NCBI GenBank assembly: GCA_023974075.1
Contig: CM043798.1
Span: 20,152,941 to 20,216,940 of the forward strand
Source of the DNA: Chaenocephalus aceratus
Taxonomy: Eukaryota > Chordata > Actinopteri > Perciformes > Channichthyidae
DNA length: 64,000 nt
Reading direction: 5' to 3'
In this document: piece after piece, positions 3,972 to 23,720 of the stretch
Layout: each line of letters starts with the position of its first letter
Position numbering within the stretch: position 1 is the first letter of the stretch
The notes under the pieces: model-generated
What the model saw: only the letters and a program-made list of their open reading frames with translations
Database searches by the model: none
What the model was told of the DNA's origin: nothing
Program-made: the position numbers and the translations under genes

Positions 3972-4073
3972 AACCCAATAGCGATAGCCTTAGAGGGCGA
4001 AGCCTTATACGAAATAGACTAGGGTTACGTATTGTAACCCAGCTTCTATGAGTATAGGCGCAGCCCTCTAAGG
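3972..4073 (+). repeat. DIRS internal complementary region (ICR)
   Basis: The second half (4018-4073) is the reverse complement of the right terminus (4249-4303). The first half is expected to be the reverse complement of the missing left terminus. It closely resembles the right ITR in direct orientation, with the shared block CCCAATAGCGATAGCCTTAG at both sites. In DIRS elements the ICR templates circle closure. Confidence 0.8.
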
Positions 4074-4231
4074 TTCGGGCCCCTCTGGTGCCGCGAATAG
4101 CAGAAGAAAAGCTGTGGGAGCGGATTGTAGGGCCTACTTCCTATTTATACGGAAGTGAGCCCGGAGGTGGGGCCCACGTCGTAGGTGGGCGTGGAATAAG
4201 TCTGTCAGTGCTGCACACGTGCAGTGGGGTT

Positions 4232-4303
4232 TACCCAATAGCGATAGCCTTAGAGGGCTGCGCCTATACTCATAGAAGCTGGGTTACAATTCGTAACCCT
4301 AGT
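4232..4303 (+). repeat. DIRS right inverted terminal repeat
   Basis: It pairs as an inverted repeat with 4018-4073 over more than 50 bp with few mismatches. It ends near CGTAACCCTAGT, which is taken as the right edge of DIRS copy A. Confidence 0.75.
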
Positions 4304-4888
4304 TACTAATAATACACTGTGCAGCTACTTCGCACAGTAGGAATGCACATTGTAAACATGTCAATAAGTTCCTGTTGTCCAAAAAACGGTTTAACAGCAA
4401 CAGGTTGCAATCCTTGTCGACACAAAGAAAATATCAGATGTGTGGCTCAGTATGGTGATAATATGATTCTCTCTGAGAAACTTTCAAATCTTTAAATAAA
4501 TATCAAAAGTGTACGCGTGCCAGTAAGGGCTTCAAACAAGTAAATTGTTTACCATAACAATAGCAGAGAGCTTGACAAGTAATTATAATTTATCACGTCT
4601 GATATCTGTTTCTCAACCGTGTGTTCAATATTTTGAAGAGTGTCAGATTCACTTGTCTGAATAAGCACAAGTACTCTGAAAGATATGGTCTTTGTGATAT
4701 CGATGCTTTAAAAAAAAAAATCCATCCCTCATAACTTTGAAATAAAGATCAAGTATAAATCTGATCAGCCACGGAAAATGTAAAGACTCACAGAACAGTT
4801 TAGCCCATGCTCAAAGTCATATATTCTAACTTTTTCTTCCACGCCTTGTGAGGGGATTCACTTTAAAGATTTCACATGTTCATGCTAT
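4304..4888. other. Flanking host DNA, no gene seen
   Basis: This is A/T-rich sequence between DIRS copy A and the Polinton palindrome. I see no ORF, repeat family or RNA signature. Confidence 0.6.
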
Positions 4889-4894
4889 GTTCTC
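4889..4894. repeat. Polinton target-site duplication, left copy (GTTCTC)
   Basis: The six bases GTTCTC precede the element's AG start and recur exactly after its CT end at 17871-17876. A 6-bp duplication is the known Polinton/Maverick value. Confidence 0.85.
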
Positions 4895-4950
4895 AGTAGT
4901 GATACAAATGCGGTATCAATCTCATTAGTATGCAGAGAAAGTGACAGGTC

Positions 4951-5101
4951 GCCCCGCCCCTTTTTGACCGGAAGTCCCGCCTCTTTATTTTGAAAACCGG
5001 AAGTCCCGCCTTTTTATTTTATTTTGAAAACCGGAAGTCCCGTGTCATTCTACCGGAAGTCCCGAATCGTTCGACCGGATGTACAGCCACCGCTTCCGGT
5101 T
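4951..5101 (+). promoter_or_regulatory. Terminal GC box plus six-site ETS-like (CCGGAAGT) array
   Basis: A GC box (GCCCCGCCCC, 4951-4960) is followed by ACCGGAAGTCCCG-type repeats at 4967, 4996, 5030 and 5052, a variant ACCGGATGT at 5074, and one inverted copy (CTTCCGGT, about 5093). ACCGGAAGT is the consensus for GABP/ETS factors and GCCCCGCCCC for Sp1. The array lies 56-206 bp from the terminus, where a terminal promoter or enhancer for the first gene would sit. Spacers of TTTATTTT separate units two and three. Binding is inferred only. Confidence 0.6.
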
Positions 5102-5361
5102 TACAAAATAAAATTAAAATTAAATTAAAATTAAAAAAATGAGAAAAATTAAATGCAGTTGTTTTCAATCAATTAATATACATAGGATATATATCCCGCC
5201 TCCTAACCACTTCCTGTGTGATTAATCCTGTATATAGTATTGAATGTAACTTGCAAATAACATGAAATTAATCTAAAGTAAAGCATCTAAAAAAATGTAT
5301 ATTTAAACCTCTCTATTTTTGCAAACAGGACAGGAGGGGAGAAAACATATGGTGGAGGAGG

Positions 5362-5398
<37 letters not shown>

Positions 5399-5477
5399 TC
5401 CCCGCCCATCACCCCATCTCCCACTGTCTAAATAAAAAGCCAGCTTCACTCTTAAATATTTCTCAAGTCGAGAGAAA

Positions 5478-5642
5478 ATGGCCAAGAGACGTCTTGATAT
5501 GAATTTAATCAGCGAGACACCGGTAACAACTTACAACCATCCGTTGGGTGCTCCAATCAAGAAACGAATGAAGTTTGTATGCCGGGTTCAGACACCTACA
5601 GCCGAAGAACTTCGCCTCTCTGTTTTTGCGAACAGGACATGA
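5478..5642 (+). CDS. Small basic ORF (54 aa), Polinton left arm, function unknown
   Basis: ATG at 5478 in an AAAATGG context, stop TGA at 5640-5642. The product begins MAKRRLDMNLISE and is rich in Lys/Arg (KKRMK near residue 30), with no signal peptide or membrane segment. A TATA-like CTAAATAAAAAGCC lies about 50 nt upstream. The reading frame spans both units of the tandem module, so the downstream copy is shorter. I do not recognise the family. Its position next to the terminal ETS array suggests an early or regulatory gene, which is inference. Confidence 0.5.
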   Translation: MAKRRLDMNLISETPVTTYNHPLGAPIKKRMKFVCRVQTPTAEELRLSVFANRT

Positions 5643-5677
5643 GGGGAGAGACCATAGGGTGGGCCGAGGGGAGGGGG

Positions 5678-5711
<34 letters not shown>

Positions 5712-5788
5712 ACACACACACTTTCCCCACCCCCCACCCCATCTCCCCTTAGAGGTTGTTTAAATAAAAGCCAGCGTCTCTTGTGGCC

Positions 5789-5872
5789 ATGAGACGTCTT
5801 GATATGAGTTTAATCAGCGAGACATCGGTGACAACTTACGACCATCCGTTGGGTGCTCCAAATCAAAAGTAA
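5789..5872 (+). CDS. Shortened duplicate of the 5478 ORF (27 aa)
   Basis: Starts at the equivalent ATG and matches the first half of the 54-aa ORF with substitutions (for example MSLISETSV against MNLISETPV). It ends at TAA after the conserved HPLGAP block. A TATA-like TTTAAATAAAAGCC lies about 30 nt upstream. It is probably a degenerate duplicate, though splicing from the AAAAGTAAAG downstream is possible. Confidence 0.35.
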   Translation: MRRLDMSLISETSVTTYDHPLGAPNQK

Positions 5873-5880
5873 AGCATATA

Positions 5881-6473
5881 AAAAAACAGATATTTTAAAA
5901 AGGCAGCTTTTTTGTTAAAGGATAAGGGAGGGGGAAAAAAAAAACCAAACCCCCTGTGGAGGAACCGTAAACCCCCTATGGAGACAACCATGCGGTAATT
6001 AGGGGGAGGTAGGTAATATACTTAAAATATATATAGAAAGTCAGAGAATATTTATCAGAGGATAACGCATATACATTTTATACAAGTCGACACGAGTGGA
6101 TTTTGTAAGAAAACAAAGTTTTCGTTCTCAGACCGCTGCAGCATTTTCAAGCAGATCTCTGCGATATGCAATCGCTGTCCGAATATAATGATGACTTTTA
6201 ATTATTTGTTAACAGTCATAAATGTATTTAGAAAAAACCTGTGCTCAAACATTAAAAAGAAAAAGAAGGGTAAAGTTACCAAAGCTTTTTGATATAGTTT
6301 TTAACACACAGCGAGATCCCTAAAAAAAAAGTTACAAACAGCTGCGGGGTAAGAATTCTTTACTAAAGTTTTTTTCAAAACTTGTTGAAGAAAAGAGGTA
6401 TTGCACATTATATAACCGCCAGTGACATAAGGCATGTACGGTAGAAAGATTTAACCGTACGCTGTAAACTAAA
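5881..6473 (+). other. Polinton arm, no clear gene
   Basis: There are G/C-run stretches (5925-6010) and an A/T-rich part. A short open stretch about 6085-6195 (reading TRVDFVRKQSFRSQ) lacks an ATG. It could be a remnant exon, but nothing supports this. Confidence 0.4.
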
Positions 6474-6696
6474 ATGTGGAGGTATTTTACAGCTAAAAAC
6501 ACTCCTAGACCTAAAAATCTGAGAAAAACCAAGTCTCTCCCCACGATATGCAGCCTGGATCAAATGCCTACAGGACCGCCATCCTCACCAACATTTAGGA
6601 CACCAGATCTGGACAGCGCTATGGCTGACATTGATATCACGGGGTGGCTGGATATGCCTCAACCTCCATGTGAATTACACACAAATCTGCAGAGTG

Positions 6697-6735
<39 letters not shown>

Positions 6736-6767
6736 TTTATTTAACAGGTAAAAAAAAACCTCATTGA
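6474..6767 (+). CDS. Acidic/proline-rich ORF interrupted by a TA microsatellite
   Basis: Codons 1 to about 75 look like genuine protein: MWRYFTAKNTPRPK, then LRKTKS, a Pro/Ser/Thr-rich segment and an acidic DLDSAMADIDITGWLDM stretch. The rest is a (TA)n tract and a host repeat tail, so the true C-terminus is lost. Twenty bases encoding the LRKTKS region are identical to the start of the gene at 11107 and both continue toward an acidic D-x-W segment, suggesting paralogy. Function unknown. The acidic block could be an activation domain (inference). Confidence 0.4.
6703..6732 (+). repeat. (TA)n microsatellite
   Basis: Uninterrupted TA dinucleotides, mirrored at about 16031-16061 in the right arm. 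Confidence 0.9.
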
Positions 6768-6990
6768 GATTAAAATCTCTTTTTCCAAGAGTGACCTGAC
6801 CAAGAAGGGCAGCATGTACAAAGTTACAACATATAAAACACAGACATGAAAGGCAGACAAATACAGCTGTAAAACACAAATAAAATGGCACATTAGCCAG
6901 TCAATATAAAACCTTTATTTAACCAGATTGGTCCCATTGAGATCATAGATCTCTTTTTCAAGGGAGACCTGCAGAAATATGCAAAGTAAA
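6733..6990 (-). repeat. Two teleost interspersed-repeat tails (LINE/SINE 3' type) inside the arm
   Basis: Read on the minus strand, 6910-6975 and 6733-6800 carry a CTC(T/C)TTG(A)AAAAGAGAT...CTCAATG.G...TTTAACCAG/AAATAAAG pattern common in fish genomes as the 3' tail of an interspersed repeat. Two diverged copies sit about 170 bp apart. They are present in both arms, so they were acquired before the palindrome formed. Confidence 0.55.
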
Positions 6991-8439
6991 ACAAACTATT
7001 AAAATCATTCAAAAACTGGCAACATTTTTAAAACGATTTCAAGATATACGAGCACTCACATCGACCAAAACTAAAAAAGTGTTACACAATGACTGACATT
7101 CTGTACGGGAGTTCACACCCCCAGCTGCTGTAGGGAGTTGAAATATGTTAAGGCTCTCGGGGGATGGTGGTTAAGAGACAGATTCTTAGTTTTTGGACTG
7201 CCTCAGGGGGTTAACGACATCTACTAAAAACAAAGTACTTCATAGTGTTAGTGTTCCCTGCCCTTATCCATTTATTTTTCTTTATTCAGCAATCGGCAAT
7301 TGTGTCACCTTGTTTTTTCTTGTTAATTAGGAAAGTGCTTGCTTAAATGTTTGTATTTTAAGTGCATATTATAGAACAGGTATAGGGCAATATCAAAATT
7401 AGCCCAAACTTTTTTTTTATTCATAATGTTTACTGATAATCATCAAAATATGCAGGGGGTCCAATTCTTAACTTTTCCCTAAAACATTCTAGAATTTCTT
7501 TATCTAACACAAAAAACATGAATTTTAAAAACATTTGACAACAATAGATACGTTGTTCCTGTTTTTATTACGATTATCAGATACAAAATGATAAGTATAA
7601 ATAAATCTATGCTTTCAAATGCATTATTCAGAGATATTAGGCCTGTCAAATCAAAACTGGAGCATGTGAATAAGAGAGAGCAGAGTCCTAACCAGCAGCC
7701 CCTCTGATCCAAACCAAACTCTGAGCAGCAGGCGGCTGAGACGGAGCCAACCAGCATGCGGACCAAACTGCTGCTATTGATATTTGTCTATATTGATGTT
7801 AAACATGGAGCTGCTGTGATGCAAGTCAAATTTGATCTGACCATTAAAGTATTATCGTATTATCGTATCGTATTTCTGCAGGAGATCCACACATAGACAA
7901 CTCAACATCACAAAGAGGTCAAAAACTTCACAACAGCCCTTTCAATTGGGACAAAATGTATCGACAGTCATTTAAAAATGACCCCTCTCACAACTAAGAA
8001 GAAGTTAAGAAAATGGACACTGCAAATATAGCTAGGTAAAATGCCAAGTGGGTACAGCTCATTACAAATGTTAATCTTGGGTTTGCTTTCACTCGATGAA
8101 GCTCAGTGCAAGTTCTTTCATGAAGTGCAGGGTCTTTAATGAAGACTTTCACCTTTCCTAGTCGGATTCTCGTACCCCTAAATCTATCACAGCAAGATGG
8201 AGTCTAATCGCCAAAGTTTAATATATATTGCTCTTTGTATACACAGCAATAAATATGTTTATCGCACTAAACAAACTTCAACTGTCAATCATTCCAAACA
8301 CTCTTTAAACCGAGGAGGAGGGGCAGACTTAAAATATTGTAACGCAATTTAATCACATTACAAAGTTTGACCCAAAGTTGCTCCCACGCGGATGTTCCCC
8401 ATGAATTGAATGGTTTTGGAAGAGCAAAGGCAGATTTTG
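6991..8439. other. Polinton arm, noncoding
   Basis: Apart from the LINE-like tail listed separately, I see A/T-rich sequence and no ORF with protein-like composition. An open minus-strand frame at 8285-8590 (100 codons) lies partly in the iterated repeats and is not called. Confidence 0.4.
7680..7885 (+). repeat. LINE-like 3' end with short tandem tail
   Basis: A moderately G/C-rich stretch ends in ATTAAAGTATTATCGTATTATCGTATCGTATT, a tandem ATCGT(ATT) tail like those of L2-type LINEs. It is mirrored at about 14878-15083. It interrupts an otherwise A/T-rich viral-type region. Confidence 0.45.
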
Positions 8440-8960
8440 GCTTTTTTTCTCTTGCCAAGATACTTTTAGACACACTTTGAGGGATGCAAAACCTTAAAAC
8501 TAGAAAATGAAGTACAGTCTGATTAGATTTTTTCTTAAAGACTGTTTCTCTAAAAGGTAAGTTTGTGATTTTAACAATTTTCCCTGACACTTGGCAGATT
8601 TGTGTGTAATTCTCTCACAACGGAACTGTAAGATACACTTTTTATGTATGCAAAACCTTAAACTTTTTTTTTTTTTTTTTTGAAAATAAAATACTTTGTC
8701 TGAATACATTTTCTTTAAAGGCACTTTTTTTTATTTTAACGCTATTTCAGTGGAAAAATACAGTTTTGTTGACATCAAGCCTTTTTTCTCTTTTCTTGTG
8801 TTACTAAGATACTTTTAGACACACTTTGATGTATGCAACACTTGTTCAGTTAAACAATGGGTTTTTTTTTTTTTTCTGATAAACTTACATATTTTAGTTA
8901 TTTTATGTTACCAAGATACTTTGAGATACACCCTGATGTACGCAACACTTAACAAAGGGT
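8440..8960 (-). repeat. Iterated repeats, inward gene block upstream side (inverse orientation)
   Basis: Three or four degenerate copies of a unit containing GATACTTT(T)AGA(C)ACAC(T/C)TTGATGTATGCAA(C)AC. On the minus strand they read like the 10541-11010 units (AAAGTGTATCTT...GAGAATTA...CA(C/T)AAATCTG). A further single copy sits at 6664-6702. They are the inverse-orientation partner of the array on the other side of the two-gene block. Confidence 0.6.
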
Positions 8961-9262
8961 ATAATATGAAGTACTTGGTAAGGAAGGGGTTTTTCCTTAA
9001 GGGTGCAAAACTTTAGAACAGGGTAAAATATTCATTAAATTGTATTGAATTGAGTTTTCTTTTTTGATTTTCAACATACTATTTGTACACAATGACTTTT
9101 CCATATTTCTGATAAACTATACTTTTGACTTTTTTCCGTAAAATCATGACAAACTATTACTTATTCTTAAATTTCACCTATTGCTGGAGATGAGATGAAA
9201 AAGCTACAACGCTTAAAGAACTTTTTTTTCTAAAAACTCTCAATTCTATAATTGACTCCCCC

Positions 9263-9345
9263 ATTCAACGCAATGAGCCCCACCCTCCACTCAGCAAATC
9301 ATCTAAAACGAAGGACCTCACTAAGACGATCGTTGTAAACTAGCC
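9263..9345 (+). promoter_or_regulatory. Promoter-leader cassette 1 (TATA-like)
   Basis: TCAACGCAATG..., CACTCAGCAAATCATCTAAAACGAAGGAC, then AACTAGCCATGG. The same blocks in the same order occur at 11039-11106. ATCTAAAA at about 9300 sits where the TATA box of the second cassette sits, about 45 nt before the ATG. Confidence 0.6.
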
Positions 9346-9909
9346 ATGGAGCAGAGAAAAGCCAAGACTCCCCCCGCGAGTTGCAGTCAGGAACAGAGTC
9401 TACCAGCAACACCACCATGTGGGAAACCCGAATCTTGCAGTACTACTGCTGCTGATGCTACTCCTCGGGTCAAGAAGTCTCGGTTTAGGGACACAGTGAA
9501 ATCGGAGTTGTTTTATATTCTGGAGATGGTGATGTATCGGTACAGAAAAGAAATCTGCAAAGAATGCCGACGCAGTAACCCCGACCAGAGGCAACACGAT
9601 TGTCGGAATGACATGCCCGATTTCTTCTTCAGAAACAATTACAATGCGTTAATGAAAAGACTTTGGCTCGCCGACTTCGTTGCAGTGATTGACCAGAGTC
9701 TTATTGAAAAAGGCATTTGCGAGGATAAACTGAGGATAGGACGCGCTTCGGAAGCTTTTCTGCACAAGCTTGTAAAATGCAGATGCCTCAAGGAGAGACT
9801 TGAAATATCCATACAGAGTTGGATGGAGAAGAAGAAGACTAACAAACAACAGTCGGATGGAGAAGAAGCCAGGGACTTGTTCAATGCAGTGACTTTTTTC
9901 TTTAAGTAA
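9346..9909 (+). CDS. Virus-like protein with CxxC...HxC motif (187 aa)
   Basis: ATG at 9346 (CCATGG context), stop TAA at 9907-9909. The N-terminal 45 residues are Ser/Pro/Thr/Cys-rich (MEQRKAKTPPASCSQEQS). From about residue 50 there is an ordered, helix-rich domain. Residues about 69-84 carry ICKECRRSNPDQRQHDC, a CxxC-x9-HxC putative zinc site with a PxQxxHxC core. I associate that pattern with small proteins of animal DNA viruses (adinto-, adoma- and parvo-like), by memory and without a search. The C-terminus is basic. Only 7 nt separate it from the next gene, suggesting a bicistronic unit. The identical copy is at 12853-13416. Role unknown; nuclear regulatory function is a guess. Confidence 0.6.
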   Translation: MEQRKAKTPPASCSQEQSLPATPPCGKPESCSTTAADATPRVKKSRFRDTVKSELFYILEMVMYRYRKEICKECRRSNPDQRQHDCRNDMPDFFFRNNYNALMKRLWLADFVAVIDQSLIEKGICEDKLRIGRASEAFLHKLVKCRCLKERLEISIQSWMEKKKTNKQQSDGEEARDLFNAVTFFFK

Positions 9910-9916
9910 AATAAAA

Positions 9917-10381
9917 ATGGGAAACTACTTTGCAAAACGCTCTGTATATATTGATCATAATGTAGTCATTACCCGTTTAATAAATGTGGTGATGGGGACG
10001 ATTGAAAACAGAACGAGTAGTGACCCCTGTGTAAAAAGAATGGCTGAAGTTTGTAAACTACAAGACATTTTGGATATCGTTCGTTCTGGCAGTACTATTC
10101 AGGGTCATTGGGAAACGCTTGTAAACGAAACATTTAAAGTGGTCCTGGAATCTTCATTTTCCGAAACATTCTGTAACATTATCTCAGAAATGAAACAAAC
10201 ATCAAAAGTGTATCATGTGCTCTCATTGTATGCTCTGTTTGTAGATGTAATGCATCTGTGTGTTGAAAACAGCATACACGTGAATATTTTGACTGAAGTG
10301 AAAAAACTCCATCACGATATCTCCAATAATATGGGGAATTCTAAGCTGGAGACTGTCCTGGGGATGCTACAATCAGTATAA
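9917..10381 (+). CDS. Helical protein, possible Bcl-2-family-like (154 aa)
   Basis: ATG at 9917, stop at 10379-10381, followed by AATAAA at 10405. The predicted product is all-helical without signal peptide. Residues about 90-125 (SFSETFCNIISEMKQTSKVY, then HVLSLYALFVDVMHLCVEN) have the spacing of a Bcl-2 BH1 helix pair: an aromatic/Phe-x-x-hydrophobic helix, a short turn, then a small-residue hydrophobic helix. A GHW...ETFK segment lies just before. The canonical NWGR is not present, so the call is weak. DNA viruses of the adenovirus/adintovirus type commonly encode anti-apoptotic Bcl-2 homologues, and coupling to the preceding gene resembles such early regions. Duplicate at 12381-12845. Confidence 0.45.
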   Translation: MGNYFAKRSVYIDHNVVITRLINVVMGTIENRTSSDPCVKRMAEVCKLQDILDIVRSGSTIQGHWETLVNETFKVVLESSFSETFCNIISEMKQTSKVYHVLSLYALFVDVMHLCVENSIHVNILTEVKKLHHDISNNMGNSKLETVLGMLQSV

Positions 10382-10404
10382 CTATTGATTTTGTGGGTGA
10401 AAAA

Positions 10405-10410
10405 AATAAA
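10405..10410 (+). terminator. Poly(A) signal AATAAA after the two-gene block
   Basis: AATAAA lies 24 nt past the stop of the 9917 gene, with T/GT-rich sequence downstream. Mirrored at 12352-12357. Confidence 0.5.
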
Positions 10411-10540
10411 AAAAGTGTTCTTTACATCTAAAAACTGTTGTCATCATTATAGCAAGGGGAGCGTGTCTGATACATGTGTATTACAGTCCTTCTTGTTGTG
10501 TTTTTCAGTGTTTTCTGTGTGTCTGTACACACAAAGCACA

Positions 10541-11010
10541 CTTCATTATCTACTTTTCAGCTTCTTTAAAAAGAAAAGTGTATCTTTCGGTAACTTTCTC
10601 AGAGAATTTAAGCATAAATATGTCAAATGTTCAAAACAGCATTGTTTCACTGAAATACCCTCAAAATGACAAACTGCCATTAAGAGTCAGATTCTTAACC
10701 AAATCTACTGACACAAAGTCCTTCATTATCTACTTTTCAGCTTTTTAATACAAAAGTGTATCTTTCGGTAACCTTCTTGAGAGAATTAAGCATAAATCTG
10801 TCAAAGATTCTTAACGAAATCTACTGACACAAAGTCTACTTCATTATCTACTTTTCAGCTTGTATACACAAAGTGTATCTTTCAGTAACTTTACCAGAGA
10901 ATTTAAGCATAAATCTGTCAAATGTTCAAAACAGCCTTGTTTCACTGAAATACCCTCAAAATGACAAACTGCCATTAAGAGTCAGAATCCAAGCGAAATC
11001 TCCTCAAACA
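10541..11010 (+). repeat. Iterated repeats (three units, 120-180 bp) upstream of the 11107 gene
   Basis: Each unit starts CTTCATTATCTACTTTTCAG, then AAAGTGTATCTTTC(G/A)GTAAC, GAGAATT(T)AAGCATAAAT and TGTCAAA. Units 1 and 3 continue with GTTCAAAACAGC, CACTGAAATACCCTCAAAAT and CCATTAAGAGTCAGA. Unit 2 (about 10721-10840) lacks about 70 bp of this. Their position directly 5' of a promoter suggests enhancer or origin elements (inference). Mirror copy at 11752-12221. Confidence 0.75.
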
Positions 11011-11038
11011 GAGTACTTTCTACAGATGAAGCCTCCCA

Positions 11039-11106
11039 CTCAACACAATATGTCCCACCCACTCAGCAAATCATATAAAACTAAGGACGCCCGTTAAAAA
11101 CTAGCC
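11039..11106 (+). promoter_or_regulatory. Promoter-leader cassette 2 with TATA box
   Basis: CTCAACACAATATGTCCCAC, CACTCAGCAAATC, ATATAAAACTAAGGAC (TATA box at about 11074-11080), then AACTAGCCATGG. The TATA box lies about 27-33 nt before the ATG, so any 5' leader is very short. Closely related to 9263-9345. Confidence 0.65.
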
Positions 11107-11319
11107 ATGGATCTGAGAAAAACCAAGTCTGACGTAGCCTGCCCTTATTATCACCAGGATAATGGATACGGGCTTAATGACTGGATGTTACAAAGTAGGG
11201 GAGAGGATGTCCCAGAAGAAGAGCTTTCTTTAAAAGATGGTATTATAGATAACCTTTATAGAAACAGTATATCTCATACCACTCGCAAGATCGCAAACGA
11301 CAATAGCAGAAAAGAATAG
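11107..11319 (+). CDS. Small acidic-then-basic ORF (70 aa), probable N-terminal part of a longer protein
   Basis: ATG at 11107 in a CCATGG context behind a good TATA box. The start MDLRKTKSDVACPYYHQ resembles the starts of the 9346 and 6474 ORFs. The middle is acidic (EDVPEEELSLKDGIID). The frame stops at 11319 (SRKE, stop), but the +1 frame stays open and becomes extremely Lys/Arg-rich through the palindrome centre. A splice or frameshift, natural or mutational, could fuse them. Function unknown. The mirror gene is at 11443-11655. Confidence 0.5.
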   Translation: MDLRKTKSDVACPYYHQDNGYGLNDWMLQSRGEDVPEEELSLKDGIIDNLYRNSISHTTRKIANDNSRKE

Positions 11320-11347
11320 AAAAAGTAAAGAAAAACGAAGAAAAAGC

Positions 11348-11414
11348 AACATGAAAAGGAGAAGAAAAATTAAAAGCAAACGCAGAATGCGAATGAAAAG
11401 AAAAGGGACCATCA
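11348..11414. repeat. Unpaired spacer at the palindrome centre (67 bp)
   Basis: Pairing stops at 11347/11415. The spacer is purine-rich and encodes Lys/Arg-rich peptide on the plus strand. It looks like single-copy sequence beyond the fold point, as expected for a template switch or foldback within a gene. Confidence 0.9.
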
Positions 11415-11488
11415 GCTTTTTCTTCGTTTTTCTTTACTTTTTCTATTCTTTTCTGCTATTGTCGTTTGCGATCTTGCGAGTGGTATGA
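11351..11488 (+). CDS. Lys/Arg-rich ORF crossing the palindrome centre (45 aa)
   Basis: ATG 11351, stop TGA 11486-11488. The first 18 codons are almost all Lys/Arg (MKRRRKIKSKRRMRMKRK). After the fold point the frame reads the antisense of the left arm as a Phe/Leu-rich string, so the C-terminal half is an accident of the palindrome. The basic stretch, which is open upstream to about 11280, probably belongs to a truncated nucleic-acid-binding or nuclear-localising protein of the parent element. Confidence 0.35.
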   Translation: MKRRRKIKSKRRMRMKRKGTISFFFVFLYFFYSFLLLSFAILRVV

Positions 11489-11655
11489 GATATACTGTTT
11501 CTATAAAGGTTATCTATAATACCATCTTTTAAAGAAAGCTCTTCTTCTGGGACATCCTCTCCCCTACTTTGTAACATCCAGTCATTAAGCCCGTATCCAT
11601 TATCCTGGTGATAATAAGGGCAGGCTACGTCAGACTTGGTTTTTCTCAGATCCAT
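11443..11655 (-). CDS. Mirror copy of the 11107 ORF (70 aa)
   Basis: Same predicted protein as 11107-11319, in the right arm. Its promoter cassette is at 11656-11723, with TATA box at about 11682-11688. Confidence 0.5.
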   Translation of the reverse strand: MDLRKTKSDVACPYYHQDNGYGLNDWMLQSRGEDVPEEELSLKDGIIDNLYRNSISHTTRKIANDNSRKE

Positions 11656-11723
11656 GGCTAGTTTTTAACGGGCGTCCTTAGTTTTATATGATTTGCTGAG
11701 TGGGTGGGACATATTGTGTTGAG
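11656..11723 (-). promoter_or_regulatory. Mirror copy of promoter-leader cassette 2
   Basis: Reverse complement of 11039-11106. Confidence 0.6.
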
Positions 11724-11751
11724 TGGGAGGCTTCATCTGTAGAAAGTACTC

Positions 11752-12221
11752 TGTTTGAGGAGATTTCGCTTGGATTCTGACTCTTAATGGCAGTTTGTCA
11801 TTTTGAGGGTATTTCAGTGAAACAAGGCTGTTTTGAACATTTGACAGATTTATGCTTAAATTCTCTGGTAAAGTTACTGAAAGATACACTTTGTGTATAC
11901 AAGCTGAAAAGTAGATAATGAAGTAGACTTTGTGTCAGTAGATTTCGTTAAGAATCTTTGACAGATTTATGCTTAATTCTCTCAAGAAGGTTACCGAAAG
12001 ATACACTTTTGTATTAAAAAGCTGAAAAGTAGATAATGAAGGACTTTGTGTCAGTAGATTTGGTTAAGAATCTGACTCTTAATGGCAGTTTGTCATTTTG
12101 AGGGTATTTCAGTGAAACAATGCTGTTTTGAACATTTGACATATTTATGCTTAAATTCTCTGAGAAAGTTACCGAAAGATACACTTTTCTTTTTAAAGAA
12201 GCTGAAAAGTAGATAATGAAG
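11752..12221 (-). repeat. Mirror copy of the iterated repeats
   Basis: Reverse complement of 10541-11010, with the same three-unit structure including the short middle unit. Confidence 0.75.
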
Positions 12222-12380
12222 TGTGCTTTGTGTGTACAGACACACAGAAAACACTGAAAAACACAACAAGAAGGACTGTAATACACATGTATCAGACACG
12301 CTCCCCTTGCTATAATGATGACAACAGTTTTTAGATGTAAAGAACACTTTTTTTATTTTTTTCACCCACAAAATCAATAG

Positions 12381-12845
12381 TTATACTGATTGTAGCATCC
12401 CCAGGACAGTCTCCAGCTTAGAATTCCCCATATTATTGGAGATATCGTGATGGAGTTTTTTCACTTCAGTCAAAATATTCACGTGTATGCTGTTTTCAAC
12501 ACACAGATGCATTACATCTACAAACAGAGCATACAATGAGAGCACATGATACACTTTTGATGTTTGTTTCATTTCTGAGATAATGTTACAGAATGTTTCG
12601 GAAAATGAAGATTCCAGGACCACTTTAAATGTTTCGTTTACAAGCGTTTCCCAATGACCCTGAATAGTACTGCCAGAACGAACGATATCCAAAATGTCTT
12701 GTAGTTTACAAACTTCAGCCATTCTTTTTACACAGGGGTCACTACTCGTTCTGTTTTCAATCGTCCCCATCACCACATTTATTAAACGGGTAATGACTAC
12801 ATTATGATCAATATATACAGAGCGTTTTGCAAAGTAGTTTCCCAT
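12381..12845 (-). CDS. Mirror copy of the possible Bcl-2-like gene (154 aa)
   Basis: Predicted protein identical to that of 9917-10381. Lies 7 nt after the mirror CxxC...HxC gene. Confidence 0.45.
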   Translation of the reverse strand: MGNYFAKRSVYIDHNVVITRLINVVMGTIENRTSSDPCVKRMAEVCKLQDILDIVRSGSTIQGHWETLVNETFKVVLESSFSETFCNIISEMKQTSKVYHVLSLYALFVDVMHLCVENSIHVNILTEVKKLHHDISNNMGNSKLETVLGMLQSV

Positions 12846-12852
12846 TTTTATT

Positions 12853-13416
12853 TTACTTAAAGAAAAAAGTCACTGCATTGAACAAGTCCCTGGCTTCTTC
12901 TCCATCCGACTGTTGTTTGTTAGTCTTCTTCTTCTCCATCCAACTCTGTATGGATATTTCAAGTCTCTCCTTGAGGCATCTGCATTTTACAAGCTTGTGC
13001 AGAAAAGCTTCCGAAGCGCGTCCTATCCTCAGTTTATCCTCGCAAATGCCTTTTTCAATAAGACTCTGGTCAATCACTGCAACGAAGTCGGCGAGCCAAA
13101 GTCTTTTCATTAACGCATTGTAATTGTTTCTGAAGAAGAAATCGGGCATGTCATTCCGACAATCGTGTTGCCTCTGGTCGGGGTTACTGCGTCGGCATTC
13201 TTTGCAGATTTCTTTTCTGTACCGATACATCACCATCTCCAGAATATAAAACAACTCCGATTTCACTGTGTCCCTAAACCGAGACTTCTTGACCCGAGGA
13301 GTAGCATCAGCAGCAGTAGTACTGCAAGATTCGGGTTTCCCACATGGTGGTGTTGCTGGTAGACTCTGTTCCTGACTGCAACTCGCGGGGGGAGTCTTGG
13401 CTTTTCTCTGCTCCAT
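12853..13416 (-). CDS. Mirror copy of the CxxC...HxC virus-like gene (187 aa)
   Basis: Predicted protein identical to that of 9346-9909. Both copies are open, so either the duplication is recent or gene conversion keeps them the same. Confidence 0.6.
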   Translation of the reverse strand: MEQRKAKTPPASCSQEQSLPATPPCGKPESCSTTAADATPRVKKSRFRDTVKSELFYILEMVMYRYRKEICKECRRSNPDQRQHDCRNDMPDFFFRNNYNALMKRLWLADFVAVIDQSLIEKGICEDKLRIGRASEAFLHKLVKCRCLKERLEISIQSWMEKKKTNKQQSDGEEARDLFNAVTFFFK

Positions 13417-13499
13417 GGCTAGTTTACAACGATCGTCTTAGTGAGGTCCTTCGTTTTAGATGATTTGCTGAGTGGAGGGTGGGGCTCATTGCGTTGAAT
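13417..13499 (-). promoter_or_regulatory. Mirror copy of promoter-leader cassette 1
   Basis: Reverse complement of 9263-9345. Confidence 0.55.
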
Positions 13500-13801
13500 G
13501 GGGGAGTCAATTATAGAATTGAGAGTTTTTAGAAAAAAAAGTTCTTTAAGCGTTGTAGCTTTTTCATCTCATCTCCAGCAATAGGTGAAATTTAAGAATA
13601 AGTAATAGTTTGTCATGATTTTACGGAAAAAAGTCAAAAGTATAGTTTATCAGAAATATGGAAAAGTCATTGTGTACAAATAGTATGTTGAAAATCAAAA
13701 AAGAAAACTCAATTCAATACAATTTAATGAATATTTTACCCTGTTCTAAAGTTTTGCACCCTTAAGGAAAAACCCCTTCCTTACCAAGTACTTCATATTA
13801 T

Positions 13802-14323
13802 ACCCTTTGTTAAGTGTTGCGTACATCAGGGTGTATCTCAAAGTATCTTGGTAACATAAAATAACTAAAATATGTAAGTTTATCAGAAAAAAAAAAAAAA
13901 ACCCATTGTTTAACTGAACAAGTGTTGCATACATCAAAGTGTGTCTAAAAGTATCTTAGTAACACAAGAAAAGAGAAAAAAGGCTTGATGTCAACAAAAC
14001 TGTATTTTTCCACTGAAATAGCGTTAAAATAAAAAAAAGTGCCTTTAAAGAAAATGTATTCAGACAAAGTATTTTATTTTCAAAAAAAAAAAAAAAAAAG
14101 TTTAAGGTTTTGCATACATAAAAAGTGTATCTTACAGTTCCGTTGTGAGAGAATTACACACAAATCTGCCAAGTGTCAGGGAAAATTGTTAAAATCACAA
14201 ACTTACCTTTTAGAGAAACAGTCTTTAAGAAAAAATCTAATCAGACTGTACTTCATTTTCTAGTTTTAAGGTTTTGCATCCCTCAAAGTGTGTCTAAAAG
14301 TATCTTGGCAAGAGAAAAAAAGC
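13802..14323 (+). repeat. Mirror copy of the inverse-orientation iterated repeats
   Basis: Counterpart of 8440-8960. An A-run near 13888-13903 is one of the few places where the arms differ in length. Confidence 0.6.
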
Positions 14324-14877
14324 CAAAATCTGCCTTTGCTCTTCCAAAACCATTCAATTCATGGGGAACATCCGCGTGGGAGCAACTTTGGGTCAAACTT
14401 TGTAATGTGATTAAATTGCGTTACAATATTTTAAGTCTGCCCCTCCTCCTCGGTTTAAAGAGTGTTTGGAATGATTGACAGTTGAAGTTTGTTTAGTGCG
14501 ATAAACATATTTATTGCTGTGTATACAAAGAGCAATATATATTAAACTTTGGCGATTAGACTCCATCTTGCTGTGATAGATTTAGGGGTACGAGAATCCG
14601 ACTAGGAAAGGTGAAAGTCTTCATTAAAGACCCTGCACTTCATGAAAGAACTTGCACTGAGCTTCATCGAGTGAAAGCAAACCCAAGATTAACATTTGTA
14701 ATGAGCTGTACCCACTTGGCATTTTACCTAGCTATATTTGCAGTGTCCATTTTCTTAACTTCTTCTTAGTTGTGAGAGGGGTCATTTTTAAATGACTGTC
14801 GATACATTTTGTCCCAATTGAAAGGGCTGTTGTGAAGTTTTTGACCTCTTTGTGATGTTGAGTTGTCTATGTGTGGA

Positions 14878-16027
14878 TCTCCTGCAGAAATACGATACGA
14901 TAATACGATAATACTTTAATGGTCAGATCAAATTTGACTTGCATCACAGCAGCTCCATGTTTAACATCAATATAGACAAATATCAATAGCAGCAGTTTGG
15001 TCCGCATGCTGGTTGGCTCCGTCTCAGCCGCCTGCTGCTCAGAGTTTGGTTTGGATCAGAGGGGCTGCTGGTTAGGACTCTGCTCTCTCTTATTCACATG
15101 CTCCAGTTTTGATTTGACAGGCCTAATATCTCTGAATAATGCATTTGAAAGCATAGATTTATTTATACTTATCATTTTGTATCTGATAATCGTAATAAAA
15201 ACAGGAACAACGTATCTATTGTTGTCAAATGTTTTTAAAATTCATGTTTTTTGTGTTAGATAAAGAAATTCTAGAATGTTTTAGGGAAAAGTTAAGAATT
15301 GGACCCCCTGCATATTTTGATGATTATCAGTAAACATTATGAATAAAAAAAAAGTTTGGGCTAATTTTGATATTGCCCTATACCTGTTCTATAATATGCA
15401 CTTAAAATACAAACATTTAAGCAAGCACTTTCCTAATTAACAAGAAAAAACAAGGTGACACAATTGCCGATTGCTGAATAAAGAAAAATAAATGGATAAG
15501 GGCAGGGAACACTAACACTATGAAGTACTTTGTTTTTAGTAGATGTCGTTAACCCCCTGAGGCAGTCCAAAAACTAAGAATCTGTCTCTTAACCACCATC
15601 CCCCGAGAGCCTTAACATATTTCAACTCCCTACAGCAGCTGGGGGTGTGAACTCCCGTACAGAATGTCAGTCATTGTGTAACACTTTTTTAGTTTTGGTC
15701 GATGTGAGTGCTCGTATATCTTGAAATCGTTTTAAAAATGTTGCCAGTTTTTGAATGATTTTAATAGTTTGTTTTACTTTGCATATTTCTGCAGGTCTCC
15801 CTTGAAAAAGAGATCTATGATCTCAATGGGACCAATCTGGTTAAATAAAGGTTTTATATTGACTGGCTAATGTGCCATTTTATTTGTGTTTTACAGCTGT
15901 ATTTGTCTGCCTTTCATGTCTGTGTTTTATATGTTGTAACTTTGTACATGCTGCCCTTCTTGGTCAGGTCACTCTTGGAAAAAGAGATTTTAATCTCAAT
16001 GAGGTTTTTTTTTACCTGTTAAATAAA

Positions 16028-16061
<34 letters not shown>
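14878..16061. repeat. Mirror of the LINE-like tail, interspersed-repeat tails and TA tract
   Basis: Counterpart of 6703-7885: LINE-like end with ATCGT tail (14878-15083), noncoding sequence, two repeat tails (about 15773-16033) and (TA)n. Confidence 0.6.
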
Positions 16062-16066
<5 letters not shown>

Positions 16067-16289
16067 CACTCTGCAGATTTGTGTGTAATTCACATGGAGG
16101 TTGAGGCATATCCAGCCACCCCGTGATATCAATGTCAGCCATAGCGCTGTCCAGATCTGGTGTCCTAAATGTTGGTGAGGATGGCGGTCCTGTAGGCATT
16201 TGATCCAGGCTGCATATCGTGGGGAGAGACTTGGTTTTTCTCAGATTTTTAGGTCTAGGAGTGTTTTTAGCTGTAAAATACCTCCACAT
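15996..16289 (-). CDS. Mirror copy of the interrupted 6474 ORF
   Basis: Same first 75 or so residues, disrupted by the same TA tract. The disruption therefore predates the duplication that made the palindrome. Confidence 0.4.
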
Positions 16290-16889
16290 TTTAGTTTACA
16301 GCGTACGGTTAAATCTTTCTACCGTACATGCCTTATGTCACTGGCGGTTATATAATGTGCAATACCTCTTTTCTTCAACAAGTTTTGAAAAAAACTTTAG
16401 TAAAGAATTCTTACCCCGCAGCTGTTTGTAACTTTTTTTTTAGGGATCTCGCTGTGTGTTAAAAACTATATCAAAAAGCTTTGGTAACTTTACCCTTCTT
16501 TTTCTTTTTAATGTTTGAGCACAGGTTTTTTCTAAATACATTTATGACTGTTAACAAATAATTAAAAGTCATCATTATATTCGGACAGCGATTGCATATC
16601 GCAGAGATCTGCTTGAAAATGCTGCAGCGGTCTGAGAACGAAAACTTTGTTTTCTTACAAAATCCACTCGTGTCGACTTGTATAAAATGTATATGCGTTA
16701 TCCTCTGATAAATATTCTCTGACTTTCTATATATATTTTAAGTATATTACCTACCTCCCCCTAATTACCGCATGGTTGTCTCCATAGGGGGTTTACGGTT
16801 CCTCCACAGGGGGTTTGGTTTTTTTTTTCCCCCTCCCTTATCCTTTAACAAAAAAGCTGCCTTTTTAAAATATCTGTTTTTTATATGCT

Positions 16890-16973
16890 TTACTTTTGAT
16901 TTGGAGCACCCAACGGATGGTCGTAAGTTGTCACCGATGTCTCGCTGATTAAACTCATATCAAGACGTCTCAT
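16890..16973 (-). CDS. Mirror copy of the 27-aa ORF
   Basis: Counterpart of 5789-5872. Confidence 0.35.
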   Translation of the reverse strand: MRRLDMSLISETSVTTYDHPLGAPNQK

Positions 16974-17050
16974 GGCCACAAGAGACGCTGGCTTTTATTT
17001 AAACAACCTCTAAGGGGAGATGGGGTGGGGGGTGGGGAAAGTGTGTGTGT

Positions 17051-17085
<35 letters not shown>

Positions 17086-17120
17086 CCCCCTCCCCTCGGC
17101 CCACCCTATGGTCTCTCCCC

Positions 17121-17285
17121 TCATGTCCTGTTCGCAAAAACAGAGAGGCGAAGTTCTTCGGCTGTAGGTGTCTGAACCCGGCATACAAACTTCATTCGTT
17201 TCTTGATTGGAGCACCCAACGGATGGTTGTAAGTTGTTACCGGTGTCTCGCTGATTAAATTCATATCAAGACGTCTCTTGGCCAT
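17121..17285 (-). CDS. Mirror copy of the 54-aa basic ORF
   Basis: Counterpart of 5478-5642, with the same start and stop. CA tracts flank it at about 17041-17084 and 17366-17400. Confidence 0.5.
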   Translation of the reverse strand: MAKRRLDMNLISETPVTTYNHPLGAPIKKRMKFVCRVQTPTAEELRLSVFANRT

Positions 17286-17364
17286 TTTCTCTCGACTTGA
17301 GAAATATTTAAGAGTGAAGCTGGCTTTTTATTTAGACAGTGGGAGATGGGGTGATGGGCGGGGA

Positions 17365-17403
<39 letters not shown>

Positions 17404-17663
17404 CCTCCTCCACCATATGTTTTCTCCCCTCCTGTCCTGTTTGCAAAAATAGAGAGGTTTAAATATACATTTTTTTAGATGCTTTACTTTAGATTAATTT
17501 CATGTTATTTGCAAGTTACATTCAATACTATATACAGGATTAATCACACAGGAAGTGGTTAGGAGGCGGGATATATATCCTATGTATATTAATTGATTGA
17601 AAACAACTGCATTTAATTTTTCTCATTTTTTTAATTTTAATTTAATTTTAATTTTATTTTGTA

Positions 17664-17814
17664 AACCGGAAGCGGTGGCTGTACATCCGGTCGAACGATT
17701 CGGGACTTCCGGTAGAATGACACGGGACTTCCGGTTTTCAAAATAAAATAAAAAGGCGGGACTTCCGGTTTTCAAAATAAAGAGGCGGGACTTCCGGTCA
17801 AAAAGGGGCGGGGC
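17664..17814 (-). promoter_or_regulatory. Mirror copy of the terminal GC box and ETS-like array
   Basis: Reverse complement of 4951-5101, with CGGGACTTCCGGT-type units and a GGGGCGGGGC box near the right terminus. Confidence 0.6.
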
Positions 17815-17870
17815 GACCTGTCACTTTCTCTGCATACTAATGAGATTGATACCGCATTTGTATCACTACT

Positions 17871-17876
17871 GTTCTC
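17871..17876. repeat. Polinton target-site duplication, right copy (GTTCTC)
   Basis: Exact repeat of 4889-4894, immediately after the terminal ACTACT. Confidence 0.85.
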
Positions 17877-18594
17877 TGAACAGAAACACGTGGACAAGAT
17901 TATTTTTAAGACTTACATACTCAATACTTTGGGCAATCCCCACAGGAGCAATTTGGGGTGAAGTGTCTTGTCCAGGGACACAACGACATGCTGTCTGCAG
18001 TGGGGTTTGAACCTGTGACCCCCTGGTCCCAACACCAAGGCTCTATCCACTTCTCCACACACCTCCCCAAGTTTTTGTCAAGTAGATGCGCCGCAGCTTT
18101 TCTTGGCTGCAGCTATCACCCAACTCTTCTGCCAGGAGATGGAACAAGATTTTTCTTTTTGGCAGCTTTAAGTGTTTTTGTTGGAGAGCTTATACCAAAT
18201 TCAGGGGTGCTTAAGTACCACTTTATCCTCAATATTTGAGACGCTGTTCCAGCTGCCATGGAGTCCCTGTCTGGAGACAACATCATCATCAATTATCTAC
18301 AGGTTTCTTTCCGTATAACTCTTTGAGAACTCCTCATATCTTAAAAGATGAAAAGACGTGCAGGAAAGGCTCAGGGTATTTGATGCTTTATTTTCTCATT
18401 TCAACATACTAGAGCTAGACATTTTATCTGGTATTTCTAAATATATCCCTTTGAGCATCCTCCGTTTGGGTGTGGAGAACAAATAAGAAATGTTTGGAAT
18501 AATATATTAAAATGCAAACACCTATACCCATATTTTTTATTTATGTTGGAGGAGCCTGGGACTTTTCATTGACACAATTACATAGCTATTGTGC

Positions 18595-18598
<4 letters not shown>
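17877..18598. other. Host DNA with one interspersed-repeat fragment (17935-18065)
   Basis: 17935-18065 (GTGTCTTGTCCAGGGACACA, then GGGGTTTGAACCTGTGACCC, ending TATCCACTTCTCCAC) is a common fish interspersed repeat with a B-box-like GGTTTGAACC. The remainder shows no gene. Confidence 0.45.

Positions 18599-18628
<30 letters not shown>
18599..18628 (+). repeat. (AAT)n microsatellite
   Basis: Nine to ten TAA/AAT units, directly followed by a repeat fragment at 18632-18690 (GCAGCTCAAAGTGCTTTACA), a common 3'-end motif of fish LINE/SINE repeats. Confidence 0.8.
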
Positions 18629-18690
18629 GCTTTATTTATATATTCACTTTTCATACAACACATGCAGCTCAAAGTGCTTTACAAAATGAC

Positions 18691-19700
18691 ACATCACAAG
18701 TTAAAAACAAACAACAATAAATTCCCCTCAGATTATTTGTTAAGAACTTTAAAAGGTACATGATAGGTTACAAGGAGGTAAAATGTATGATAATAAAAAT
18801 AAAATAAATAATGGTTTCTCTCTGACAGATAAGACACAAGACAACTGAGTCGATGCAACAATATAAAATATAATATAAAACCCCATAAAACAAGGTGAAC
18901 ATATAGGTACAACAGAAGATATACATATGACAACAAGCCTTTCAATCTTGAATATGTGCTAGTATGTCACCAAGCAGCATGATCTTGTTCCACAACAGAT
19001 GACCAATGGAGAGCTGGACCTTGAAAAAAACCTAAAAAGTCTGATGAAAGTCTATAAATTATAAACTTGTGGACCCTTTGGGTTCTTTTTAAAGATCTAA
19101 CGAAGTCCGGATTATTAGAGATCGACCCCATATCACAATATTTCTGTGACTTTAATCAGGGCCATGTCTTTGTATAACGTCCCCTTCAGTTTCCTTTTGA
19201 ACCTTTCCCATGAGGCTGAGGCAGAGGGGACAGCTGGGAGATATCCATGCTGTCAGCACATCAGTAAAAACATTACTTTCATTAGGCTCCATTATATCAC
19301 CACAGACATCCTTGTTAAAATGTCATTCGCTAATTCCTTTCGATACTCATTTCCACCCTGCTGTCCCAGCAGGATTAATGTCCTATATATCGGGATGTGG
19401 ATAAAAAACAAGCTCAACTTTGATTAAACAGAGGGAGAAAGAGAGAGAGGTACAGTTCCTTAATTGATTTCACATCCATGGCAGCCATATTAAGCTGAGC
19501 TGGCAAATCTATATGTTTTTGTTGTATTTACAGACACATTTATGGCTTTTACTCCTGCAAAGTAGTAATAAGCTAAACACAATCTTTCTAATTAAATCAT
19601 TTTAAATGAATTTTAATTAGAGATGTATTTGTTGTGTGGGCATTTAGACAAGTAAGAAGAAGATTAGCTTTTCAAAAGTGTTAATCTTTCCCCCCGGAAG
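18691..19700. other. Host intergenic DNA, no gene seen
   Basis: A/T-rich. Short open frames have no protein-like composition. Confidence 0.5.
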
Positions 19701-21242: not shown

Positions 21243-22670
21243 AAATGTTTTTTGGGGAACCAGTGCCTTTATTTAAGGGACAGTGTTTACATGGGCAGAC
21301 ATAGGGGACGACACGCGGCAGAATTCTAACTCGGGTCCTTCGCATTGGTGCCTAGCCCCAGTACGCCGCAAGCACTACCAACTGAGTTACACAACTTCCA
21401 AAGTATGCCATTTTTTTTCTCCGACAGAAAGGAATCATTAGAACATTGCTGTTTTAAAATGAAGTTAGCAAAAACCTGTGCATATTTAACTGAAGAATAA
21501 TTTCTCTAACTTAAATACTATGTTACACTAACAAATGGCAAGTGCTCTAAACTGTTCTGGGTTTTAAGATGCTTTCAGTGGATCTACGACTTGTTCAAAT
21601 AGCTCTGTTTATGTATGAAACCTTATGTGTGTGCTCTCACCTGCATACGGAGCACACAGTACACTGCTGTGTATAAAGAAGTCTCTTTCTGGATGGCTGC
21701 CTATTGAAGTGGAATAAGCCAGAAACCTCAGTAAATGGGTTTGGGCCACAGCCACAACACAGCACATTTCTTTCTGCAGGAGTCAGGACACCAACCAAAC
21801 ACACAAACGTCTCCTCTGTCAGGATTGTTCTGTTCTCCTGAGTCTGATACTCCGGAGTCTGACGGGAATAATTGATATGTTGTCTTGTGCCATTGTGTTC
21901 GTCTCCATGAAAAGACATAAACACTTGAGTTTCAGTTAGAAATCATGGAGCGGCAGGAGCAGCAGGGAGCGGCCCCCCTCCTCACGCTGGGCCCTCGAGG
22001 GGAATATAAATGAAATGTGCACCTGTGCAACCACTGAGACTGCAATCCCTCTTCCCTACATGATAACACACATTTTTATAGAGCGGAGGAAGGCAGTGTT
22101 ATGTTTATCTTTAAGTCCGTCTTCAGGAAAAACGATAATAGCTGTTAACTTGCAGGAAAACAGCAAGCCTTTTTCCTCCTTTTAGCAGCAGACGTAGAGC
22201 GGGTGTTTGTCAGACCCAGCACCTTGATTCTGTTTCACAATGGCCCAGACGATTAAACTGCATATTTCTGCACTTAGAGCTGATGTGGGGCCACGTTGAA
22301 ACATTGCATTTATGTTTTAGGTCATGTACCTAATGTTCCTGTCAAGGACCCATTTAAAATAATTGCAAACTAAATTGCATCCATTATCCCCTTAAAGCCT
22401 TACACATGATGTTTTCCATCATGACAACAGCAAGTGACATGATTCAAATATAGAATAAGCAAGCCTTTACAGCTTATTTAGTGTACATTTGTATGGATGC
22501 GGTAGATACACATTAATATATAAATGCATGATAGGCAAAATGTTGTAATCATTCATTGAGTTACAATATAAATGTTATGAGGCATTATTATGAACATTAT
22601 GGGGCTTTCTGTTACATAATGGGTAAAGATGTATTCAGTAGAGGTATACAAATACAAACCACACACTCCC
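21243..22670. other. Host DNA with a tRNA-SINE-like fragment (about 21295-21395, minus)
   Basis: On the minus strand the fragment starts GTGTAACTCAGTTGGTAGTG (A-box-like) and continues to GACCCGAGTTAGAATTC (B-box-like), as in a degraded tRNA-derived SINE head. No gene is seen in the rest. Confidence 0.4.
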
Positions 22671-23720
22671 GGGGGGTATACTACGAAGCAGGATTTTCGC
22701 TTAGCCGGCTAAATTCAGGGGAAACTCCGGCTTTCTCGGCCCTACGAAGCTGGTTCTCTTTTTAGCAGGCTAGATCTCCATGGTAACTTATGCTTAGCGG
22801 CTAACCTGGTCGGGACCAGGTTAGGTTTCAGGCTAAGAGCTCAACTCAGTGAAAGCACGCCTGCTGACCAATCAGAAGCTCAGTGTGCGGAGTTAAAGCG
22901 ATCAAGTCATATTACAGGAGAAAGGAAATACAGAAAATGCCATCGCAGGAAAGACGCCGGCAAAAATCACGACTGTGTGAACGTGACATGATTAGAATAT
23001 CACCTCCATCTTCAGAGCAATCTGACTATTATAACATAGCGTAAGAAAGCACTTAAATCGCTGCCACCAACATAAGTACACTGAGTGAGACGTCGATGTG
23101 TCCCATTACATTCATATGATATCACATCATAATGTATCATATATCTCCTGATCTGAGTCAGCTGAGCGTGTCTGGCCGTGCAACACTCACAGTGTCACAG
23201 GACTGGATGCAGAAGTACTTATTTTAAGCAACACATTAAGTTGAGGAAACACTCGAGACAAATGTAGTGAAAGTCAGATGTGTGTTAGACGGGCAGTGAT
23301 ATCATAAACCTGTTAATGTACGCATGCAAACACATTTTATTTTGCCAGCTGTATTCACCTTGCAGGTGCAGCTATGTGGCTTTTATCCTGGATAAAGTGT
23401 TTAAGTCATGGATGTTTTAAAGTTTAACTTCTTCATATTTGACTAGTATTAAAGTTCACTTTTCATTCAGGAAGTATGACGCTGCGCTGTCAGTGCGCTT
23501 CTCCATGTTGTGATTGGTCGAATGCTCCAGATCCCACCCCTTTCATGTGAACGCGCACCTAACTAGATAGGACACGGCTGGCTTGAGCGATCAACTTGAT
23601 AACCCGCGTCGTAGTACAGTTTAGCGAGAGCGCGTACATGTATGTTTTGGATTAGGCCAACCGGCTAACTCCAAACATATCCAGGTTAGGTTGAACCAGC
23701 TTCGTAGTATAGGCCCCCGG
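22671..23720. mobile_element. TIR element of the TATACTACGAA family, copy 1
   Basis: Ends GGGGGGTATACTACGAAGC and, inverted, (GGGGGCC)TATACTACGAAGC. Interior is shared with copies 2 and 3: a CTTAGCCGGCTAA block, TAGCAGGCTAGATCTCCATGG, GACCAATCAGA, and TCAGGAAGTATGACGCTGCG near the right end. No coding capacity. Superfamily unassigned. Confidence 0.75.

Follow-up and report, generated by a model that had tools for sequence, protein, structure and literature searches.

Background

The closest described systems to the locus reported here are the vertebrate Mavericks (Polintons), whose core genes comprise protein-primed PolB, integrase, ATPase, protease and capsid. In the accessible part of PMC8097293, the commonest end motif of vertebrate Mavericks is given as 5'-(AGT)2//(ACT)2-3', 134 intact elements have 6-bp target duplications, and intact elements measure 12,723-24,620 bp in total, their terminal inverted repeats (TIRs) being 46-1,447 bp long. 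The termini are defined there as (AGT)2//(ACT)2 or (AG)3//(CT)3, and elements entered the screen through integrase and polymerase hits lying 4-40 kb apart. The authors expect the repeats of the end motif to serve jumping-back in protein-primed replication, and they state that Maverick particles have not been observed so far (PMC8097293). Here we describe a palindromic element of 12,976 bp, with Maverick-type ends, in a stretch of 64,000 nucleotides from Chaenocephalus aceratus (GCA_023974075.1, contig CM043798.1, positions 20,152,941 to 20,216,940), which is called the window below. An earlier note, made from the letters of this stretch, had taken the element for a folded-back end of a Polinton or adinto-like virus.

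Defective viral genomes of a similar shape provide further points of comparison. Adenovirus is a protein-primed virus with linear double-stranded DNA, and its incomplete particles are said, after work by Daniell in 1976, to contain inverted duplications. Unlike the palindrome described here, the adenovirus molecules are not integrated, and we know of no integrase in adenoviruses. Another parallel is found in adeno-associated virus (AAV), where snap-back genomes hold one moiety of the viral genome and replicate with Rep and helper functions supplied, according to the available portion of PMC8235507. The likeness to our element would lie in self-complementarity derived from one moiety, in the loop that some of them have, and in the reliance on supplied functions, whereas AAV is a parvovirus with another replication mode and free genomes, and the palindrome is integrated with a target duplication (PMC8235507). 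Our literature searches, for which most subscription papers were beyond reach, found no description of a non-autonomous or defective Maverick or Polinton, nor, judging by titles and the opening lines of abstracts, of a palindromic one, in agreement with the earlier statement that no class of palindromic non-autonomous Polintons had been described.

Results

The palindrome is made of two identical copies of one Maverick end, placed around a 67-bp loop, with correct termini and an intact 6-bp target duplication. The arms were delimited by arm alignment, the loop by comparison with its own reverse complement, and the duplication from the sequence at the borders, as follows:

4889..4894, no strand: left copy of the target-site duplication, GTTCTC
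4895..11347, + strand: left arm, 6,453 bp, starting with AGTAGT
11348..11414, no strand: unpaired loop, 67 bp
11415..17870, - strand: right arm, 6,456 bp, ending with ACTACT
17871..17876, no strand: right copy of the target-site duplication, GTTCTC

Reverse-complement arms of about 6.45 kb, with few indels and a 67-bp spacer, had been described before, and the arm-by-arm alignment agrees. Positions 4895-11347 and 11415-17870 are reverse complements with 0 substitutions, and they differ only in the length of four simple tracts: a CA tract at ~5365 (2 nt), a CA/CCA tract at ~5710 (1 nt), an A-run at ~5880 (1 nt), and a T-run at ~8862 (1 nt). Over their first 503 bp the arms are identical. Comparing 4001-19000 with its own minus strand by blastn gave a single match of 12,995 columns (E 0.0) spanning 4894-17871, which rules out a chance inverted repeat; its count of 35 mismatches and 14 gap openings takes in the loop as well, and was resolved by the arm-by-arm alignment. 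The inverted match ends at the duplication, the left and right flanks are different and unmirrored, and the arm had no further match (E 1e-4) elsewhere in the 64-kb window. The extent of 4889-17876 given in the earlier note is therefore right in its outer limits, but it includes both GTTCTC copies, which lie outside the element proper (4895-17870). With no substitution in 6,453 sites, the arms differ by no more than 4.6e-4 per site (95% upper bound). If rates between 1e-8 and 2e-9 per year are assumed, the palindrome would be at most ~23,000 to 116,000 years old, and it would look younger than it is after gene conversion between the arms or polishing of the consensus.

The outer ends are AGTAGT at 4895 and ACTACT finishing at 17870, a more specific form of the AG...CT ends first noticed, and perfect copies of GTTCTC abut both of them, as had been claimed. 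The + strand of the window holds 15 copies of GTTCTC, with the two at the borders counted in, and an exact match at both borders is therefore unlikely to have arisen by chance. The element shares its (AGT)2//(ACT)2 ends, the perfect 6-bp duplication, the inverted termini, and a total size inside the published range of intact elements with the vertebrate Mavericks, as far as the accessible part of PMC8097293 describes them, and the end motif and duplication back the earlier assignment of these termini to a Polinton/Maverick. It is unlike them in that both halves are the same end, and in that the inverted repeat is the entire arm of ~6.45 kb, which exceeds the longest TIR on record (1,447 bp; PMC8097293) more than fourfold.

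Both termini also resemble promoter regions, judging by the following cluster of sites:

4951..5060, no strand: GC box (4951-4960) and four ACCGGAAGT ETS-type sites (4967-5060), mirrored at 17705-17814

The ETS-type site ACCGGAAGT is found four times at each end, with 9 occurrences in the window compared to 0.31 expected from shuffles, and the GC box GGGGCGGGGC once per end, with 3 in the window compared to 0.01 expected. The GC box/ETS terminus proposed earlier is thus confirmed at both ends.

At the centre, pairing breaks off sharply at 11347/11415. Only 10 of the 67 loop positions match the loop's own reverse complement, so a decayed or gradually mismatched centre is ruled out, and the loop is simply unpaired. 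Its hairpin stability is unremarkable (z -0.96, with 35 of 200 shuffles folding equally well or better), which leaves an unusually stable loop hairpin unsupported as the cause of the turn. A basic reading frame starts within the loop at 11351, has 21 residues (13 of them K or R) up to the loop end, and continues past it into mirror sequence. Because the fold cuts this frame, an accidental turn within a longer parent is suggested, and the arm has the appearance of a terminal region followed by the first part of another frame, rather than that of a naturally delimited unit. Together, the arm alignment and the unpaired loop bear out the earlier view that only one end was folded back.

We scanned 17 left-arm open reading frames (ORFs) with Pfam, namely 14 stop-to-stop ORFs of at least 80 aa and three shorter ones, the third of which (11351) crosses the fold. 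The ORFs discussed here are:

5478..5642, + strand: 54-aa ORF without a reliable family match; mirror at ~17121-17285, - strand, computed from the arm alignment
6474..6767, + strand: 97-aa ORF entering a TA repeat; mirror at 15996-16289, - strand
9346..9909, + strand: 187-aa accessory ORF with relatives; mirror at 12853-13416, - strand
9917..10381, + strand: 154-aa accessory ORF with three relatives; mirror at 12381-12845, - strand
11107..11319, + strand: 70-aa ORF facing the loop, with TATAAAA at 11074; mirror at 11443-11655, - strand

No polymerase, integrase, ATPase, protease or capsid domain was recognised in these 17 ORFs, pieces shorter than 80 aa being mostly outside the scan. The Maverick core genes were not found there, and the element is therefore called a derivative and not an intact Maverick. 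Accessory ORFs in a terminal region are shared with the vertebrate Mavericks of PMC8097293, in the part available, while the lack of any recognised core gene sets the element apart from them. Adintoviruses, which are animal-associated relatives of the same broad group encoding integrase and PolB, are defined in the accessible part of PMC11071296 by a PolB with an OTU-like domain, a recognisable hexon and an integrase with a chromodomain. None of the three was found by Pfam in the 17 left-arm ORFs, which says nothing of the parent. Of the two parents first offered, the termini support the Polinton/Maverick, and an adintovirus would be no more than a candidate, as no core gene was recognised by which to classify the parent.

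The Pfam matches at E up to 1 were all under the curated cut-offs: DUF1679 (0.006), Prolamin_like (0.025), TSP1_2 (0.0034), and RickCE_cat (0.1). PHROGs gave five matches for the two main ORFs, with a best E of 0.15; searches of solved-structure profiles gave nothing below E 0.26, and the AlphaFold models of the accessory proteins were poor (mean pLDDT of 44.2 and 50.6). The LxCxE motif was absent from the five ORFs checked, and Rfam and tRNA scans of the window had no matches. Presumed resemblances of the 154-aa protein to a Bcl-2-like fold, and of the basic peptide at 11351 to core protein X, were considered but are not claimed here.

Relatives of both accessory ORFs were found. The 187-aa ORF is 95% identical to CesoFtcFv8_002097 of Champsocephalus esox over 66% of the query, and this protein and three unnamed ENA proteins were the relatives among 34 candidates; an alignment-based search retained 6 of 1,353 candidates, two of them new. 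The one named protein, from an icefish, by itself points weakly to a teleost host near the notothenioids. For the 154-aa ORF, 3 of 18 candidates, all unnamed, were relatives. The alignments of both ORFs with their relatives show shared cores. Most of the relatives are shorter than the window's ORF, which could reflect either decay or short contigs. Among the viral contigs scanned there was no relative, records of the window's own genome being possibly outside that scan.

About 2.5 kb of the arm (6768-9345), common to both arms, contains no ATG-started ORF longer than 85 aa. The stretch at 6700-6980, following the TA repeat that ends the 97-aa ORF, presumably resembles a teleost interspersed repeat, and it would predate the palindrome since both arms carry it. 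The regions 9260-9369 and 11035-11130, in which the 187-aa and the 70-aa ORF start, are alike (110 columns, 74% identical), and both ATGs are inside AACTAGCCATGG. Given these two similarities, a promoter-leader unit seems to have been duplicated. One unnamed relative, P0002, and the 70-aa ORF begin with an identical run of eight residues.

The accessory genes of both arms are directed at the loop. The TATAAAA at 11074 faces the loop as well, and the same strand is without AATAAA between 10405 and 14028; ATTAAA is present at 11369 (within the loop), 12013 and 12781, and could terminate RNA earlier. A read-through RNA would be self-complementary and would fold into a long hairpin over both accessory ORFs.

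Other repeats and elements were also observed in the window. At its left edge, ~3 kb from the palindromic element, there is a retrotransposon pol, where overlapping frames of the + strand, at 11-1579 and 210-1058, encode an RNase H-like (PF17917) and a reverse-transcriptase (PF00078) domain. A second inverted pair, 47967-49181 and 49981-51170, has 1.2-kb arms that are 90.7% identical and ~0.8 kb apart, with a 32-bp minisatellite (48344-48425) inside one arm. A repeat of ~1.05 kb is present in three direct copies (22668-23720, 24824-25895, and 32579-33601) that are 78-87% identical. Two further features are MITE-like in shape: a near-perfect palindrome of 57 bp at 62736-62792, and a 56-bp inverted repeat at 4018-4073 and 4248-4303 (98% identity, ~175 bp apart).

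Discussion

The palindrome probably goes back to protein-primed replication, in which a nascent Maverick strand snapped back and was turned into a palindrome with two ends; enzymes supplied in trans would then have integrated it. A strand started at one terminus would have halted ~6.5 kb in, and its 3' end would have folded back and copied its own strand to the terminus, so that a hairpin resulted in which 67 nt formed the loop. From the one open end of this hairpin, protein-primed replication would then produce a linear palindrome with two proper ends, and the integrase of a helper Maverick would insert it as one unit, with the 6-bp duplication. The polymerase and integrase, and the capsid proteins if the molecule was packaged, would be supplied from elsewhere.

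We favour this reading because the arms have no substitutions and only four tract length changes, and because the perfect arm gives way sharply to an unpaired loop. The ends next to GTTCTC match those of intact vertebrate Mavericks, the size falls in the intact range while the published TIRs are far shorter than the arm, no core-gene domain was seen in the ORFs scanned, and the inverted match stops at the duplication between different flanks, all of which argue for the same origin. As in snap-back genomes, one end is present twice, in opposite orientations, on either side of a short unpaired loop, and by this analogy the palindrome would be the Maverick counterpart of a snap-back defective genome. 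Mobilisation in trans is suggested by the combination of unrecognised core genes and intact ends in this single copy.

The same structure and duplication would also result from foldback repair within the chromosome, which the earlier note had left unweighed and which we consider rather unlikely. Here, a full-length Maverick would have been inserted with the GTTCTC duplication and later broken; the left broken end would fold back, copy the left arm to its terminus, anneal to the same-sequence right TIR, and rejoin the right flank, leaving a local scar that was never a mobile genome. Such a conversion requires no helper and no free DNA, it accounts equally well for the intact termini, the duplication and the identical arms, and the ORF-poor stretch common to both arms suggests a decayed resident parent. 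Yet it requires more than 6 kb of foldback synthesis and a template switch exactly in the homologous right TIR, which is more steps than the snap-back route, and the outer few hundred bases, where differences of the right TIR might have persisted, are without substitution. Plain foldback copying of a chromosomal segment was rejected, as the left flank would then be mirrored, whereas a proper terminus and GTTCTC are found on the right, next to an unlike flank. That same feature bears on whether the structure is an assembly or library artefact, arising from a foldback read or a mis-joined Maverick pair. Long-read sequencing and amplification are known to yield artefactual palindromes, the differences between the arms are confined to homopolymers and CA tracts, which are the sites most prone to consensus errors, and the structure rests on the sequence of one assembly. 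However, a foldback read would continue into a mirrored left flank, and the inverted match instead stops at the duplication, with the proper terminus and matching GTTCTC on the right; an artefact is unlikely, and we give it a low probability.

A distinct family with naturally giant TIRs, in which a foldback-type transposon acquired Maverick ends, would fit with the arm holding its own conserved accessory ORFs with relatives elsewhere. The fold, however, sits just past the start of a reading frame, as if the cut were random, and we know of no other copy that folds at this point, making this origin very improbable. An internal-deletion (MITE-like) derivative is excluded, since two different ends would remain.

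Several points nonetheless weigh against snap-back replication as the origin. With a single copy at hand, mobility has to be inferred. In-chromosome foldback repair ending in the right TIR could give the same structure; the ORF-poor 6768-9345 may mean that the parent was already a decayed chromosomal copy, in which case formation within the chromosome would fit at least equally well. As a hairpin, the loop does not surpass shuffled sequence, core genes in pieces below 80 aa would escape the ORF scans, and the structure is known from assembled sequence.

Conclusions

From one well-formed copy, we describe a palindromic, non-autonomous Maverick derivative, and we infer the mechanism of its origin. 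A bolder idea, which we hold to be doubtful at best, is that palindromic, core-less Mavericks form a mobile class of defective interfering elements, kept in trans by intact Mavericks, whose self-complementary RNA silences the parent; such RNA would follow from the loop-ward direction of the genes in the two arms. For AAV, 5' snap-back genomes down-regulate rep, aid packaging at a low ratio and are inhibitory in excess, and the authors propose that the dimer gives rise to double-stranded RNA, according to the available portion of PMC8235507.

If the palindrome predates integration, the locus records a free replicating Maverick with a typical error of protein-primed replication. It would then have been inserted by enzymes that it does not itself encode, and would be genomic evidence for extrachromosomal replication and trans-mobilisation. 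Core-less palindromes could not have entered the screen of PMC8097293, as its accessible part describes it, because integrase and polymerase hits were required. If the reading is true, such elements would be a hidden class, and their absence from that screen would be uninformative on how frequent they are.

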